From the NCBI GenBank assembly GCA_030586155.1, contig CP130741.1:3280680-3344679 (forward strand): a DNA stretch of 64,000 nt, in the 5' to 3' direction. Position 1 is the stretch's first letter. Every line of letters begins with the position of its first letter. Made by a program: the position numbers and the translations under genes. Shown one piece after another: positions 6,708 through 28,845 of this stretch. Below the pieces are notes generated by a model. It did not search any database. It was not told where the DNA came from and saw nothing but the letters and a program-made list of their open reading frames with translations. The stretch comes from Eubacteriaceae bacterium ES3. Its GTDB lineage: Bacteria; Bacillota; Clostridia; Eubacteriales; Eubacteriaceae.

Positions 6708-7433
6708 ATGCAAATAAAGGTCCATACTATCGAAAAATCATTTAAAAAACAAAAAGTCCTTCAAAATATTGACTTCACTATCGAAAGCGGTCATATCTTC
6801 TGCCTGCTGGGAGCATCGGGATCGGGAAAAACGACTCTATTAAGAATTATTATGGGAGCTTTAAAAGCCGATTCCGGCAACGTAACTATTGGTGAGTTGA
6901 GCGTTCCTGACAGAAGTCTTTTATCCACTATCGGTTATATGCCCCAAAACGATGCCCTATATGACGAACTGACTGTCTGGGAAAATCTCCGTTTCTTCGC
7001 CGGTCTTCATAAAATCAAACGGTCAGATTTTATGAAAGCAGCTCAGTCCCTGCTTGAAATCACAGAAATGACCGAGTTCCGGGATAAGCTGATCCGTGAT
7101 TGTTCCGGTGGGATGAAAAAACGGGCATCACTGATGGTCGCTCTCCTCCACCAGCCAAAACTGCTCCTTCTTGATGAGCCCACAGTGGGAGTCGATCCGG
7201 TCCTTCGACGAAAGATCTGGAATCATTTAAAAAGTCTGAAAGCGAATGGCGCTACAATTGTGGTCACGACCCATGTTATGGATGAGGTCTATCAGTGTGA
7301 TAATGCCGGCTTGATTCGCAACGGCCAGATTGTTGCCCTGGATACCGTCGACAACCTGATCGCTTCTACTAAAAACAGCAATATTGAAGAACTTTTCTTT
7401 ACCACTTTATCAGAAAGCGAGGCCTTATCATGA
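6708..7433 (+). CDS. ABC-2 type exporter, ATP-binding protein
   Basis: In 241 residues all ABC motifs are present: Walker A GASGSGKTT near 38-46, signature CSGGMKKRASL near 137, Walker B LLLLDEP near 155-161, and the H-loop His in VVTTHVMDE. It would energise the membrane protein encoded next, whose start overlaps this stop by four bases (ATGA). The pair forms a DrrAB-like drug or lipid exporter; the substrate is unknown. It is divergent from a TetR gene and likely de-repressed by the exported compound. Confidence 0.93.
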   Translation: MQIKVHTIEKSFKKQKVLQNIDFTIESGHIFCLLGASGSGKTTLLRIIMGALKADSGNVTIGELSVPDRSLLSTIGYMPQNDALYDELTVWENLRFFAGLHKIKRSDFMKAAQSLLEITEMTEFRDKLIRDCSGGMKKRASLMVALLHQPKLLLLDEPTVGVDPVLRRKIWNHLKSLKANGATIVVTTHVMDEVYQCDNAGLIRNGQIVALDTVDNLIASTKNSNIEELFFTTLSESEALS

Positions 7434-8443
7434 GCAGTATAATTAAACGAATATTAACCCAGATGAAAAACGATAAACGTTCAGTCGGCCTGCTTTTGTT
7501 TGCCCCCCTGCTGGTCATCACCTTATTGTACTTCATTCTGGATGACTCCTCTTATATCCCCCAGATTGCCGTTTTTGATATTAGTGACGCACTGATAACC
7601 GAACTTGCTCAAGATGCCGATCTAATTACTCTGAAAGAACTTCCAGAAAACGACAATTATCTGGAGGAAAATAACATCGATGCCCTTTTCTATACCGATG
7701 CCAATAGTCTTAATTTATTAATGTTGGAACAAAATTCTAAGTCTGCCGCGGCCCTTAAAGCCATTACTGATGCCAGTCAGGCCCTGCAAAAGAATTCTCC
7801 AAATCAGATTGACATCAGCTACGTCTACGAAACTGACAGCGGAAACCTTTTAGATTCCATGTCCTATGTAATTCTTGGTGTAATCTCTTTCTTCTTTGTC
7901 TTCATCCTTTCTGGGATGTCTTTTGTCCGGGAACGATTTGGCCAGACCCTGGAAAGAATGCTGATGACACCTATCAGCCGAATTGATATTATTGGAGGTT
8001 ATACCCTGGGCTACGGGATCCTGGCGGCAGTCCAAAGCGTCGTTATTATTCTGTATTCGTCTTACGTACTGACTATCCATAACCAGGGTTCTGTGGCTCT
8101 AAGTATTCTGGTTATGATCCTGATGGCTTTCTCCGCTGTATCCGTAGGCGCTTTGGTTTCAATTTTTTCCAATAACGAATTACAGCTGGTTCAGTTTATT
8201 CCGGTGGTGGTCATCCCTCAGATCTTCTTCTCAGGCCTGATCCCAATTGACACCATCCCCTTTGGGCTGGGTAATCTCTGCTATATCACCCCTATCTATT
8301 ACGGTTGTACCGCCCTGCAGAAAATTATGATTCAGGGCAAGGGGTTTTTTGAGATCTGGCCCTGGTTGTTAGGTTCATTTATTTATATTGTCGTTTTATT
8401 TACCGTCAATGTTATCGCACTTAAAAAATACCGGAGTATCTAG
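7430..8443 (+). CDS. ABC-2 type exporter, membrane permease
   Basis: This 337-residue protein has one N-terminal membrane helix (about 18-38), a large extracytoplasmic loop (about 40-145), then five hydrophobic helices (about 148-335). That is the YhgE/ABC2_membrane_3 layout. The cytoplasmic coupling motif region RERFGQTLERMLMTPISR follows the second helix, as in the family. It is translationally coupled to the ATPase. No terminator is obvious before the aldolase promoter, which begins about 65 bases downstream. Confidence 0.9.
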   Translation: MSSIIKRILTQMKNDKRSVGLLLFAPLLVITLLYFILDDSSYIPQIAVFDISDALITELAQDADLITLKELPENDNYLEENNIDALFYTDANSLNLLMLEQNSKSAAALKAITDASQALQKNSPNQIDISYVYETDSGNLLDSMSYVILGVISFFFVFILSGMSFVRERFGQTLERMLMTPISRIDIIGGYTLGYGILAAVQSVVIILYSSYVLTIHNQGSVALSILVMILMAFSAVSVGALVSIFSNNELQLVQFIPVVVIPQIFFSGLIPIDTIPFGLGNLCYITPIYYGCTALQKIMIQGKGFFEIWPWLLGSFIYIVVLFTVNVIALKKYRSI

Positions 8444-26183: not shown

Positions 26184-26240
26184 CATCTCAGACACTTTAG
26201 TGGCAATATCCGTTTCTAACATTCCTGTAAATAATCACAA

Positions 26241-26290
26241 AAAAGTTCGGAAGATAAAATAACTTTTCTTATATCATCTTCCGAACTTTT
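26241..26290. terminator. Strong hairpin, probably bidirectional
   Basis: Perfect 15-bp arms AAAAGTTCGGAAGAT (26241-26255) and ATCTTCCGAACTTTT (26276-26290) with a 20-nt loop, between the convergent LuxR remnant and the sulfur-relay operon. Confidence 0.85.
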
Positions 26291-26368
26291 CTACTGCAAG
26301 CTACTTTTTTCGTTTACCATCAGGCTTCTTTTACTATAAGATGGACCTCAAAATAGGAAAATCCCCAT

Positions 26369-27004
26369 TTACTCTGTAAAAGCAACCTCAACGTGTTCGA
26401 TATCCCAAAGGGATTCGATTTTTTCGATGGCGTCTTCTTTAATCGAATTGGCAAACTGATGGGTTTCCGGCAAATCAATCAGGATACTGACATTGCCATC
26501 ATCAATTTTAATTTCTTTTACCAGATGGGTAGCAATCATATCCAAACCTTTAATGGGATTCATAACTTTTTTCAGCCGTTTTCTCACAATTTCTTCCGTT
26601 GTTTTCTCTTTTTTACTGGACATACCATGCTTCTCTTCATAATTTAAAATCGCCGAACGCAGTACTTCCACAGCGAGTACTGAACAGTGGGCTTTAATCT
26701 TTGGCAAACCGCCTAGCGCTTCTGCTGCCTCCTGCCAGGTAATTTTTTTAGCCTCATCAATGGTTTTGCCTTTTGCAAGCTCAGTAATTATAGATCCAGT
26801 TGCAATATTTGAAGCACAACCATAAGACTCGAACTTTATATCAGTAATAATCTTTGTCTCCGGATCTACTTTCAGATAAAGTGAAACCATATCTCCACAG
26901 GCCGGACTGCCTTCTGTTGCCTTTGCATCAGCATCTTCAATACGCCCGGTATTTCGCGGATTCTTGAAATGTTCAATCACAATATCGCTATATTGACCAG
27001 CCAC
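26369..27004 (-). CDS. IscU-type Fe-S scaffold fused to a MIP18/DUF59-like domain
   Basis: Residues 1-125 are IscU/NifU-N: the three cluster-binding Cys appear in SPACGD, YGCASN and KAHCSVLA, with the neighbouring Asp and His of the scaffold site kept. Residues about 135-211 resemble the DUF59 domain found at the start of Mrp/ApbC carriers (KKVMNPIKGLDMIATHLVKEI), without the Cys that some members have. This fusion would assemble and possibly hand over Fe-S clusters. It is the last gene of tusA-dsrE2-nifS-like-iscU; the NifS-like stop is three bases upstream of its ATG. Confidence 0.9.
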   Translation of the reverse strand: MAGQYSDIVIEHFKNPRNTGRIEDADAKATEGSPACGDMVSLYLKVDPETKIITDIKFESYGCASNIATGSIITELAKGKTIDEAKKITWQEAAEALGGLPKIKAHCSVLAVEVLRSAILNYEEKHGMSSKKEKTTEEIVRKRLKKVMNPIKGLDMIATHLVKEIKIDDGNVSILIDLPETHQFANSIKEDAIEKIESLWDIEHVEVAFTE

Positions 27005-27006
27005 TT

Positions 27007-28179
27007 TTAATCCTCCTTATCTTTTCCCAGCGGACTGATTTTCCGCAAATTTCCAACCACTTTGGCAAGGGTATCGACTAAAAAATCCAACTCTTCAATG
27101 GTATTATAACGCCCCAATGTCACCCGGATAGACCCATGGGCCCGTTCATGATCTCCGCCTATAGCGGCAATAACATGACTGGCTTCCAGTGAGCGGCTAA
27201 AACAGGCCGAGCCGGTGCTGACGGCAATGCCGTACATATCGAGATGCAGGGTAATGGATTCACCTTCAACATAATGAAAGGTGATGTTGGCATTTTGCGG
27301 CGTTCGCTCAGTGTCATGACCATTTAATGTAACATCCGGAATTTCATTCATAACTCTGGCAATATAGTGGTCACGCATTTTTTTCAGCACAATATTTTCT
27401 TCTTCTGTGACCTGACTGATTGCCTTGGCAAAACCGACAGCCCCGGGAATATTATCCATCCCGCCTCTTAAGTCGAATTCCTGAAAACCGCCATCCATAA
27501 TCTTAGAAAGGGGGGTCCCTTTGCGGACATACAATCCACCGATTCCTTTAGGTCCATGCAGAGTATGGGCTGAAACAGTGAGCAGATCGACCTTTGTTTT
27601 TTTGACATCAATTGGGATTCGCATAAAGGTATGGGTTGCATCGGTATGAAAGAGGGTTTCTTTTTTTCGACAAATTTCAGCAATTTTATCTATCTCCTGA
27701 ACGGTGCCAATTTCCTGGTTGCCATGCTGGATAGAGACCAGAATCGTTTCCGGACGAATCAGGCTTTCAAGCTTAGCAAGATCGATTCGACCCTGCTCAT
27801 CTACATCAAGATAATCGACCATAAACCCCTGTTTTTGCAGAGTTCTAGCGCTGTATAGGACGGGAAAATCCTCGATCTTTGAAACAATCAGGTGATTCCC
27901 CTTTTTAGATTCCAAAGCTTTTGCAATGCCTTTCAGAGCCAGATTAGAGGATTCGGTGCTGCCGGAAGTAAAGATAAACTCTTCTGTCTCTGCCCCCAAT
28001 GCCCCGGCAATTTTTTCCCGGGCGCCCTCCATAGCTTCCCGAGCTTCGACACCCGGTGAATAACCAAATTCAGAAGTGGCAACAGAATATTTTTCTCTAA
28101 AATAGGGGGTCATCACCTCAAATACCTGGTCGTCAAGACGGGTTGCGGAAGCGTTATCAAAATAATATATTTTTTCCAC
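27007..28179 (-). CDS. NifS/IscS-fold protein lacking the PLP lysine
   Basis: The 390-residue class V aminotransferase-fold protein aligns along its whole length with IscS. The mobile-loop cysteine is kept (TGSACFS) and so is the cofactor Asp (HTDATH). At the position of the Schiff-base lysine (IscS SGHKIYGPKG) it reads SAHTLHGPKG, codon ACT, so Lys is Thr. The PLP-stacking His is Asp (SKIEDFPVL), the cofactor Gln is His, and the neighbouring-subunit RSGT is RGGM. A normal PLP-dependent desulfurase reaction is therefore unlikely. The frame is intact and the gene sits inside a tight sulfur-relay operon, so it is a maintained protein, not debris. Start GTG at 28179 behind AAGGAG. Confidence 0.88.
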   Translation of the reverse strand: MEKIYYFDNASATRLDDQVFEVMTPYFREKYSVATSEFGYSPGVEAREAMEGAREKIAGALGAETEEFIFTSGSTESSNLALKGIAKALESKKGNHLIVSKIEDFPVLYSARTLQKQGFMVDYLDVDEQGRIDLAKLESLIRPETILVSIQHGNQEIGTVQEIDKIAEICRKKETLFHTDATHTFMRIPIDVKKTKVDLLTVSAHTLHGPKGIGGLYVRKGTPLSKIMDGGFQEFDLRGGMDNIPGAVGFAKAISQVTEEENIVLKKMRDHYIARVMNEIPDVTLNGHDTERTPQNANITFHYVEGESITLHLDMYGIAVSTGSACFSRSLEASHVIAAIGGDHERAHGSIRVTLGRYNTIEELDFLVDTLAKVVGNLRKISPLGKDKED

Positions 28180-28192
28180 TTGATTCTCCTTC

Positions 28193-28612
28193 CTAAATAA
28201 ACAGGGTAATGGTTGATTCTCTGGCTTCTTTAATATAGGTTCCCACCGCACCATACTCATCAATATAGGACTCCATCAGATCCTTTCGTTTCAATCCCAT
28301 GATGTTCATAGTCATTTCACAGGCAATGATTTTTCCACCCAGCTCTTTATAATCATCCATCAGCCTCTCCAATGAAGCCACATTCTTTTTTTGCATTCGC
28401 CTCAGCATCATTCTCTTTCCCAATCCGAGAAAATTCATTTTCGACAGAGGCCCTTTGTCGAGGCTGCCTTTTTTAAGTCGCAATAGTCCCCAGAAGGTAA
28501 AAAACATGGACGTTTCCATCCCCATTGCCAGGGAGCCATTTGATACAATCAGAGCGCTGTAGAGTTTATCCATATCGCCGCTCTGAACGATAATCGTCGT
28601 TTTTTCGGCCAT
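28193..28612 (-). CDS. DsrE2-family sulfur-relay protein
   Basis: The 139 residues match DsrE2-like proteins: IVQSGDMDKLYSALIVSNG, AMGMETSMFFTFWGL, and the Cys motif ACEMTMNIMG, where the conserved cysteine carries persulfide sulfur in characterised relatives. The protein is partly hydrophobic, as usual in the family, and may associate with membranes. It lies between tusA and the NifS-like gene. Its ribosome site AAGGAG overlaps the tusA stop, so the two are coupled. Confidence 0.9.
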   Translation of the reverse strand: MAEKTTIIVQSGDMDKLYSALIVSNGSLAMGMETSMFFTFWGLLRLKKGSLDKGPLSKMNFLGLGKRMMLRRMQKKNVASLERLMDDYKELGGKIIACEMTMNIMGLKRKDLMESYIDEYGAVGTYIKEARESTITLFI

Positions 28613-28623
28613 TTTTAATCTCC

Positions 28624-28845
28624 TTATTTGCGAACTCTGATTTTCCAGATGCCTTCTTCTTCGTTGTCAAGCTCCACTGTCATCGACAATGCATCTGCCG
28701 CCATAGGAATTTCTTTTCGGGAAGCGGCATTGTCTCCAACAATTTCGATCACATCTCCTGCTTCTGCTTTTCGAACGGCTTTTCGCATTTCTACAAGCGG
28801 AACCGGACAGACTTGCCCTCTTACATCCACCTTGATTTCTGCCAT
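28624..28845 (-). CDS. tusA: TusA/SirA-like sulfur carrier
   Basis: At 73 residues it has the family's CPVPLV motif at about residues 13-18; its first Cys carries sulfur as a persulfide. Family length is about 75-80. First gene of the operon; a very strong AAAGGAGG precedes it. TusA passes sulfur to DsrE-type partners in tRNA thiolation, Mo-cofactor synthesis and sulfur oxidation elsewhere; the acceptor here is not shown. Confidence 0.92.
   Translation of the reverse strand: MAEIKVDVRGQVCPVPLVEMRKAVRKAEAGDVIEIVGDNAASRKEIPMAADALSMTVELDNEEEGIWKIRVRK

Follow-up and report, generated by a model that had tools for sequence, protein, structure and literature searches.

A lysine-less NifS/IscS-fold protein in a widespread tusA-dsrE2-nifS-nifU module: a candidate sulfur relay into an IscU-type scaffold

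In the textbook account, the assembly of iron-sulfur (Fe-S) clusters starts with a pyridoxal phosphate (PLP) enzyme that takes sulfur from cysteine. Here we describe an operon of Eubacteriaceae bacterium ES3 whose NifS/IscS-fold protein lacks the PLP Schiff-base lysine. The operon lies in a stretch of 64,000 nucleotides of contig CP130741.1 (the window, in what follows) and consists of tusA, dsrE2, a nifS-like gene (nifS-L, product NifS-L) and a nifU-MIP18 fusion. The nearest described system is that of Archaeoglobus fulgidus, whose IscS (AfIscS; structures 4EB5, 4EB7 and 4HVK) is reported to be without desulfurase activity and to give a cysteine ligand to a [2Fe-2S] cluster on its partner IscU (NifU-1) (PMC7585200). 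Like AfIscS, NifS-L has a type I fold without the lysine, keeps the cysteine loop and is paired with an IscU scaffold. The two differ in the pocket: AfIscS has Asp for the lysine and Ala for the glutamine and keeps His104 and Asn155, whereas NifS-L has Thr, His, Asp and Gln at these four positions. In addition, the solved A. fulgidus NifU chain has 153 amino acids (aa), against 211 in the fusion studied here.

The same source also notes a lysine-less IscS1 in Methanosarcina acetivorans (MA0808; loop STGSACFS), with an IscU1 of 24.2 kDa (PMC7585200). What that source gives on IscS1 goes no further than insoluble expression, and TusA, DsrE and MIP18 have no occurrence in its main text. From the published description, the M. 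acetivorans pair IscS1-IscU1 (MA0808-MA0807) appears to be a member of the NifS-L clade defined below, to which other Methanosarcina belong.

Three further systems invite comparison. E. coli IscS resembles NifS-L in fold (Z ~54), types of partner, loop cysteine and a compatible TusA face, but it is an active PLP desulfurase and donates sulfur to TusA, opposite to the direction that we propose for NifS-L. The rhd-tusA-dsrE2 clusters of sulfur oxidisers have the same tusA-dsrE2 pair of sulfur carriers, but are described as tied to Hdr or Dsr energy metabolism (PMC4175335), whereas the module here is tied to NifS-L and NifU; no hdr or dsr gene was found among the five neighbour genes scanned, although no search was aimed at them. 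The MIS system of methanogens (MisS-MisU) is likewise a two-gene IscS/IscU pair, but its MisS is presented as a type I cysteine desulfurase (PMC12442378), a definition outside which NifS-L falls as a type I homologue without the lysine.

In open-access titles and abstract starts we found no description of a tusA-dsrE2-nifS-nifU module, nor a paper that joins DsrE2, TusA, a cysteine desulfurase and NifU; because the search covered open-access literature only, this is weak evidence of novelty. NifS-L belongs with the lysine-less IscS proteins but has a set of partners that we did not find described in these papers, and it is real, widespread and conserved. The initial annotation of the operon, made from the letters of the window, had read NifS-L as a pseudo-desulfurase that takes up sulfur from TusA and DsrE2. 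That reading is partly supported: there is a whole lysine-less family, it is under purifying selection, and its genes travel with those for TusA, DsrE2 and a scaffold of the IscU type. A lysine-less IscS paired with IscU is already known from A. fulgidus. The A. fulgidus precedent brings with it a rival role for the protein, that of a cluster ligand instead of a sulfur carrier.

Alignment to E. coli IscS bears out every active-site change listed in the initial annotation, namely the replacement of the Schiff-base lysine, the PLP-stacking histidine and the cofactor glutamine, the altered RSGT motif (M243 replaces Thr243) and the retained loop cysteine (Table 1); Asp182 is also kept. Residue numbers refer to the listed protein P0001, which starts two codons before the GTG start, so that 2 must be subtracted for the real protein. 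In E. coli IscS, each of the substitutions K206A, H104Q and Q183E is reported to abolish desulfurase activity (PMC9978102). Compared with cysteine desulfurases of the NifS/IscS type (EC 2.8.1.7), NifS-L thus presents the class V fold and the loop cysteine but not the Schiff-base lysine, the stacking histidine or the cofactor glutamine. It also scores below the NCBIfam equivalog cut-offs for NifS (429.9 vs 530.75) and for IscS (363.4 vs 643.2 and 376.1 vs 548).

Table 1. Features of the operon and of the NifS-L active site (positions in the window).
Feature	Position	Strand	Description
tusA	28624-28845	-	TusA-family sulfur carrier, 73 aa; Pfam PF01206, 5.7e-19; CPxP Cys13 kept
dsrE2	28193-28612	-	DsrE2-like sulfur carrier, 139 aa; PF13686 (DrsE_2), 2.6e-36; single conserved Cys98
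nifS-L	27007-28179	-	NifS/IscS-fold pseudo-desulfurase; PF00266 (Aminotran_5), 3.5e-71
nifU-MIP18	26369-27004	-	NifU_N (PF01592, 5.1e-45) + FeS_assembly_P (PF01883, 3.5e-14), 211-aa fusion
Thr for PLP Schiff-base lysine	ACT codon 27562-27564	-	T208 = E. coli K206
Asp for PLP-stacking His	GAT codon 27868-27870	-	D106 = E. coli H104
His for cofactor Gln	CAT codon 27631-27633	-	H185 = E. coli Q183
Loop Cys328 in GSACFSRS	TGT codon 27202-27204	-	= E. coli C328; kept in 80/80 named loci
Inverted repeat with T-run	26235-26300	.	RNA fold -28.6 kcal/mol, z -7.7 vs shuffles

The fold itself, which the initial annotation held to be complete, is predicted with high confidence by AlphaFold2 (mean pLDDT 91.3; residues 327-332 below 50), and the model matches the structures of AfIscS, NFS1 and E. 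coli IscS with Z scores of ~52-55. Because all three match within this range, fold comparison places NifS-L no finer. Two bulky residues, F107 and F234, substitute other residues in NifS-L and presumably lie near the old PLP site.

The changed residues are a property of a clade. Searching the named genome collection with a profile of 11 Acetobacterium sequences gave 163 relatives, the best 80 of which (the 80 named loci) were analysed. For contrasts between clade and controls, we used 83 distinct clade sequences, with the window and further Bacillota loci added, and 54 distinct canonical controls, all from Bacillota searches; tallies that keep repeats (85 clade rows, and 58 controls plus E. 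coli, with two clade and four control repeats) give the same outcome. The scan patterns MDGGFQE and YSVATSEF bias the columns they cover, including that of F234, and leave the Lys, His, Gln and Asn sites unaffected.

Of 19 Acetobacterium genomes, 11 carry the gene, each copy with the Thr, Asp and His replacements. Among the best 80 of the 163 relatives, the lysine position holds Thr in 74, Leu in five, Ser in one and Lys in none, while Asp106, His185, Gln157 (E. coli Asn155), Thr184, His210 and Cys328 are invariant; Thr243 survives in two. The 83 distinct sequences agree: H185, Q157, T184, H210 and C328 occur in all, and D106 in 82, with Asn in the remaining row. By comparison, the canonical Lys, His, Gln and Asn are present in all 54 distinct controls, E. 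coli IscS not counted. These counts indicate that the PLP residues were swapped jointly and that the replacements became fixed, the lysine position being the freer one. Within the 80 relatives analysed, they also rule out a mutation of this strain alone in a family that otherwise keeps its lysine, and they led us to reject an assembly error.

The clade is well separated from its homologues by score, at ≥593 vs ≤438 bits in 398 Bacillota genomes (up to four candidates scored per genome) and at ≥552.9 vs ≤394.7 in the 38 clade-bearing genomes. Among close orthologues, dN/dS is 0.05-0.10 (17 of 55 pairs, those with dS <1.5; the pairs come from seven Acetobacterium orthologues, with the window, L017, L018 and L019 not among them), and these sequence comparisons support the view that the NifS-L lineage is under purifying selection. 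Another cysteine, Cys172, is kept in 80 of the 83 distinct sequences and is mostly absent from the controls; E. coli IscS also has a cysteine there.

As the initial annotation stated, the four genes are tightly packed: they occupy 26369-28845 on the minus strand with intergenic gaps of 11, 13 and 2 bases, and the Pfam domains agree with the gene names. The tie to tusA, dsrE2 and an iscU-type gene, which that annotation had proposed to check in such homologues, is general without being invariable. TusA, DsrE2 and NifU-MIP18 are all found beside nifS-L in 74 of the 80 loci, 66 of which have the order tusA-dsrE2-nifS-L-nifU; taken singly, NifU-MIP18 adjoins the gene in 79, dsrE2 in 76 and tusA in 76. 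Six loci are incomplete. Three (L098, L111 and L129) stop at a contig edge beside the gene, one (L083) has dsrE2 and no tusA match, and two (Methanococcoides vulcani, L114, and an Anaerolineae metagenome-assembled genome (MAG), L088) are without dsrE2 at the locus but encode this DsrE2 at another place in the genome (71% identity). Within Acetobacterium, NifS-L, this DsrE2 and the NifU fusion co-occur in the same 11 of 19 genomes.

In contrast, tusA or dsrE2 stands beside none of 57 control nifS-family loci, 52 of which have a nifU match. The control flanks spanned about 1.5 kb, against 5 kb asked for the clade, and most clade partners start within 1.5 kb of nifS-L; among the 57 loci, L001 and L034 are the same gene, and L003 is a more distant Aminotran_5 gene. 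Laying out the neighbours in five related genomes showed that two (L049 and L053) share neighbours, whereas the remaining three match neither this pair nor the window. Because the flanking genes differ in this way, the four genes can be regarded as the unit.

The partners keep the residues expected of carriers and scaffold. TusA Cys13 is present in 76 of 77 rows (one gap) and DsrE2 Cys98 in all 77. The NifU_N domain has the IscU-type scaffold residues Cys36, Asp38, Cys63 and Cys107, and in the alignment the three cysteines occur in 79 of 80 rows (one gap) and Asp38 in at least 95%. The MIP18-type domain fused to NifU shows no conserved cysteine across 80 aligned rows; other MIP18/SufT proteins carry one.

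The surface of NifS-L agrees with docking of both partners. The TusA site of E. coli IscS is described as resting on W45, E49 and D52, with TusA Arg27 and Arg31 bridging to E49 and D52, and W45R and E49A as abolishing TusA binding while IscU binding is spared (PMC2854127). In all 83 NifS-L sequences the residue at the W45 position is Ile, Val or Leu, compared with a hydrophobic residue in one and a basic residue in 47 of the 54 controls; the E49 position is acidic in 81 of 83 against one of 54, 40 controls being basic there. The full W45/E49/D52-type triad is present in 67 of 83 and in none of the 54. In every one of 77 rows, the TusA of the module is basic (Arg or Lys) at the two partner positions, as placed by ungapped offset from its cysteine. 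Judged by residue type, then, the TusA-binding face is TusA-compatible in NifS-L and charge-reversed in most controls. On the IscU side, the contact residues S326, A327, L333 and S336 are present in 85 of 85 rows.

Based on these findings, we consider it somewhat more likely than not that the operon encodes a relay which supplies an IscU-type scaffold with sulfur independently of cysteine, and in which sulfur moves from TusA and DsrE2 to Cys328 of NifS-L and from there to NifU. TusA and DsrE2 would carry sulfane sulfur on their single conserved cysteines. TusA would dock on the face equivalent to its site on E. coli IscS and pass sulfur to Cys328 on the mobile loop; NifS-L, no longer running PLP desulfurase chemistry, would act as a docking hub, with Cys328 offering the NifU_N domain a persulfide and perhaps also a cluster ligand. 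A [2Fe-2S] cluster could then be built on NifU_N, and the fused MIP18 domain may help to pass it on. In this scheme we infer that PLP is absent, which way sulfur flows, that clusters are made, and where the sulfur first comes from (sulfide, polysulfide or thiosulfate). Flow from TusA to NifS-L would reverse the E. coli direction.

A second DsrE2 of the same genome (L253:2241-3974; near 1954741-1956474) is fused with TusA, a rhodanese and a pyridine-nucleotide-disulfide reductase dimerisation domain, and its frame continues past the listed open reading frame (ORF). This fusion supports TusA and DsrE2 acting in one sulfane-sulfur chain.

More tentatively, the module may represent a widespread Fe-S route specific to anaerobes, in which a pseudo-desulfurase charged by TusA and DsrE2 with inorganic sulfur takes the place of cysteine desulfurase as the hub that supplies IscU. 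For its Fe-S assembly, Methanococcus maripaludis is reported to draw on sulfide and not on cysteine (PMC12442378). If the relay exists, the operon would be a concrete machine for delivering sulfur to an IscU scaffold without a cysteine desulfurase. The clade is also a warning that an annotation as cysteine desulfurase may in some cases be given to a protein that is no enzyme. M. acetivorans, which is called genetically tractable (PMC7585200), appears to have NifS-L.

The bacterial members among the best 80 of the 163 relatives come from Acetobacterium, other Clostridia, Syntrophales, other Deltaproteobacteria, Thermodesulfovibrionales, Dehalococcoidia, Anaerolineae and Atribacteria, and the archaeal ones from Methanosarcinaceae, Methanofastidiosum, Theionarchaea, Thermoplasmata, Altiarchaeales and one Methanobacteriaceae MAG. 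In Bacillota the protein is rare, with an upper-band match in five of 398 sampled genomes including the window's own, and in the Methanosarcina family it occurs in 72 of 100 sampled genomes.

In some of these organisms NifS-L may stand alone. Ten of the 38 clade-bearing genomes are without a second type I homologue at E ≤ 1e-40. In two Methanofastidiosum MAGs (G446 and G451) and one Atribacteria MAG (G445), NifS-L is the only NifS/IscS/SufS-type protein among the stronger, readable Aminotran_5 matches, a result that gaps in the MAGs could explain. The other stronger matches in these three are of two sorts: L215, L216 and L217 are transaminase-like, none reaching a family cut-off with its best match, and L225 is a SepCysS that passes its cut-off. 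The fragments L226 and L227 look by eye like SepCysS and a transaminase. The SepCysS over its cut-off is in G446, which fits tRNA-bound synthesis of cysteine from inorganic sulfur in that cell. For isolates the idea of a sole desulfurase was rejected: Methanococcoides vulcani and Methanohalophilus sp. RSK are without a second type I homologue but have SufS-like, lysine-bearing proteins by motif reading. Any claim that NifS-L is alone is therefore limited to the three MAGs. Others of the ten genomes also have SufS-like proteins by the same reading. In the Altiarchaeales genome WOR_SM1_SCG (L082/L228), a lysine-bearing second IscS, 51% identical to NifS-L, and a second NifU lie on the contig of the module, which makes the copies with and without the lysine close neighbours.

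Several observations weigh against the relay. A second type I homologue (E ≤ 1e-40) is present in 28 of the 38 clade-bearing genomes, and the 20 such copies fetched, from 18 genomes, all have the lysine. The intact module is lacking in eight of 19 Acetobacterium genomes (four of the eight <90% complete), and one of the eight (G014; L255:1758-2424) has an eroded copy, in which dsrE2 is missing and tusA, nifS-L and nifU have lost large internal parts, between flanks 94-96% identical to those of a relative. The module is thus dispensable in Acetobacterium, in G014 with the proviso that the draft assembly does not mislead. The phosphate-site residues T77, S205 and H207, together with D182, are mostly kept in the clade, and K206A of E. 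coli IscS is reported to retain some PLP (PMC9978102); PLP or pyridoxamine phosphate (PMP) could thus still occupy NifS-L. On the docking face, the D52 position is no more favourable in the clade than in the controls (69/83 vs 52/54), and seven of the 20 lysine-bearing second copies are also acidic at E49, though none is hydrophobic at W45. As for chemistry, DsrE2B of Metallosphaera is described as unreactive with the sulfur compounds tested (PMC4175335), and an E. coli iscS mutant is reported to grow again when H2S is supplied, provided that IscU is present (PMC13015791). Finally, related rows and linked genes are not independent evidence, and the contrasts between clade and controls share descent.

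Of the alternatives, the one that fares best has NifS-L act as proposed for AfIscS, that is, as a structural partner whose loop cysteine is a ligand of the [2Fe-2S] cluster on IscU, with free sulfide as the source and TusA and DsrE2 serving another purpose. The nearest solved relatives of both proteins point this way, being AfIscS for NifS-L (3.6e-100) and IscU of the same complex for the NifU domain (4.2e-43). In a 63-row tree the 29 clade rows form one group (100/100), and AfIscS is its sister (100/92) on a long branch of 0.88. The cluster-ligand function is the one described for AfIscS (PMC7585200), and the H2S-fed, IscU-dependent growth mentioned above would suit such a role. The TusA-compatible face does not decide against it, because in AfIscS, too, W45 and E49 are matched by Phe and Glu. 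However, this role leaves the linkage of tusA and dsrE2 unexplained, and the NifS-L pocket is more remodelled than that of AfIscS, which keeps His104 and Asn155. We regard it as a serious but rather unlikely alternative to the relay.

It is improbable, in our view, that the remodelled pocket has taken on a new ligand, or PMP, and catalyses some other reaction, with Asp106, His185, Gln157 and His210 as new catalytic or binding residues. What speaks for such a pocket is that the new residues are frozen in the distinct sequences while the lysine site varies between Thr, Leu and Ser; yet there is no lysine to form an internal aldimine, and the bulky F107 and F234, if placed near the site as we assume, count against it. 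Equally doubtful is that the relay serves another acceptor, such as cofactor sulfuration of formate dehydrogenase or tRNA thiolation, with NifU as a side branch. A gene of the FdhD-NarQ group lies near four of the 80 loci (L082 at 6915-7703, L091, L095 and L100; one member scanned), and E. coli IscS and TusA have been linked to the molybdenum cofactor (PMC3831636) and to tRNA thiolation (PMC2854127). Against this, FdhD is rare, whereas NifU-MIP18 is the most constant partner and its three cysteines and aspartate are kept. Finally, a decaying paralogue without function, which the missing or eroded copies in some Acetobacterium might suggest, deserves almost no credence in view of the low dN/dS, the new residues invariant across two domains of life and the conserved operon; the first two of these also led us to reject a pseudogene reading of nifS-L.

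Read-through of nifS-L into nifU was considered as well. The gene ends in TAG in nine of ten Acetobacterium orthologues (L010-L019), and in seven of these the frame continues to 584-634 codons, across nifU. In L010 the TAG sits within the nifU ribosome-binding site, and no PylS over the family cut-off was found in six Acetobacterium genomes (one model only). A pyrrolysine or read-through NifS-L-NifU fusion was accordingly rejected, and the TAG taken as an ordinary stop.

In the window, nifS-L starts at a GTG with GGAAGGAG upstream, and the listed ORF reaches further upstream, as far as a TTG at 28263. The operon is flanked upstream by a methyladenine glycosylase gene and on the other side by a converging GerE-domain gene. 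The inverted repeat between the operon and the GerE-domain gene (Table 1) is likely a transcription terminator, although it is not in the list of the consensus scan; a scan for a sigma-70 promoter upstream of tusA found none.

Other arrangements were seen in the relatives. In one Acetobacterium genome (G010; L254:442-2343), a 633-aa protein fuses NifU_N to ThiF and has the first NifU cysteine replaced (GNPIDGD); the two genes beside it are PLP-enzyme-like. In Dehalococcoidia, genes of the Asp/Glu racemase family directly follow nifS-L in five loci (L084, L096, L098, L102 and L132), and a radical SAM gene is nearby in four (L098, L102, L106 and L132), with one member scanned in each case.

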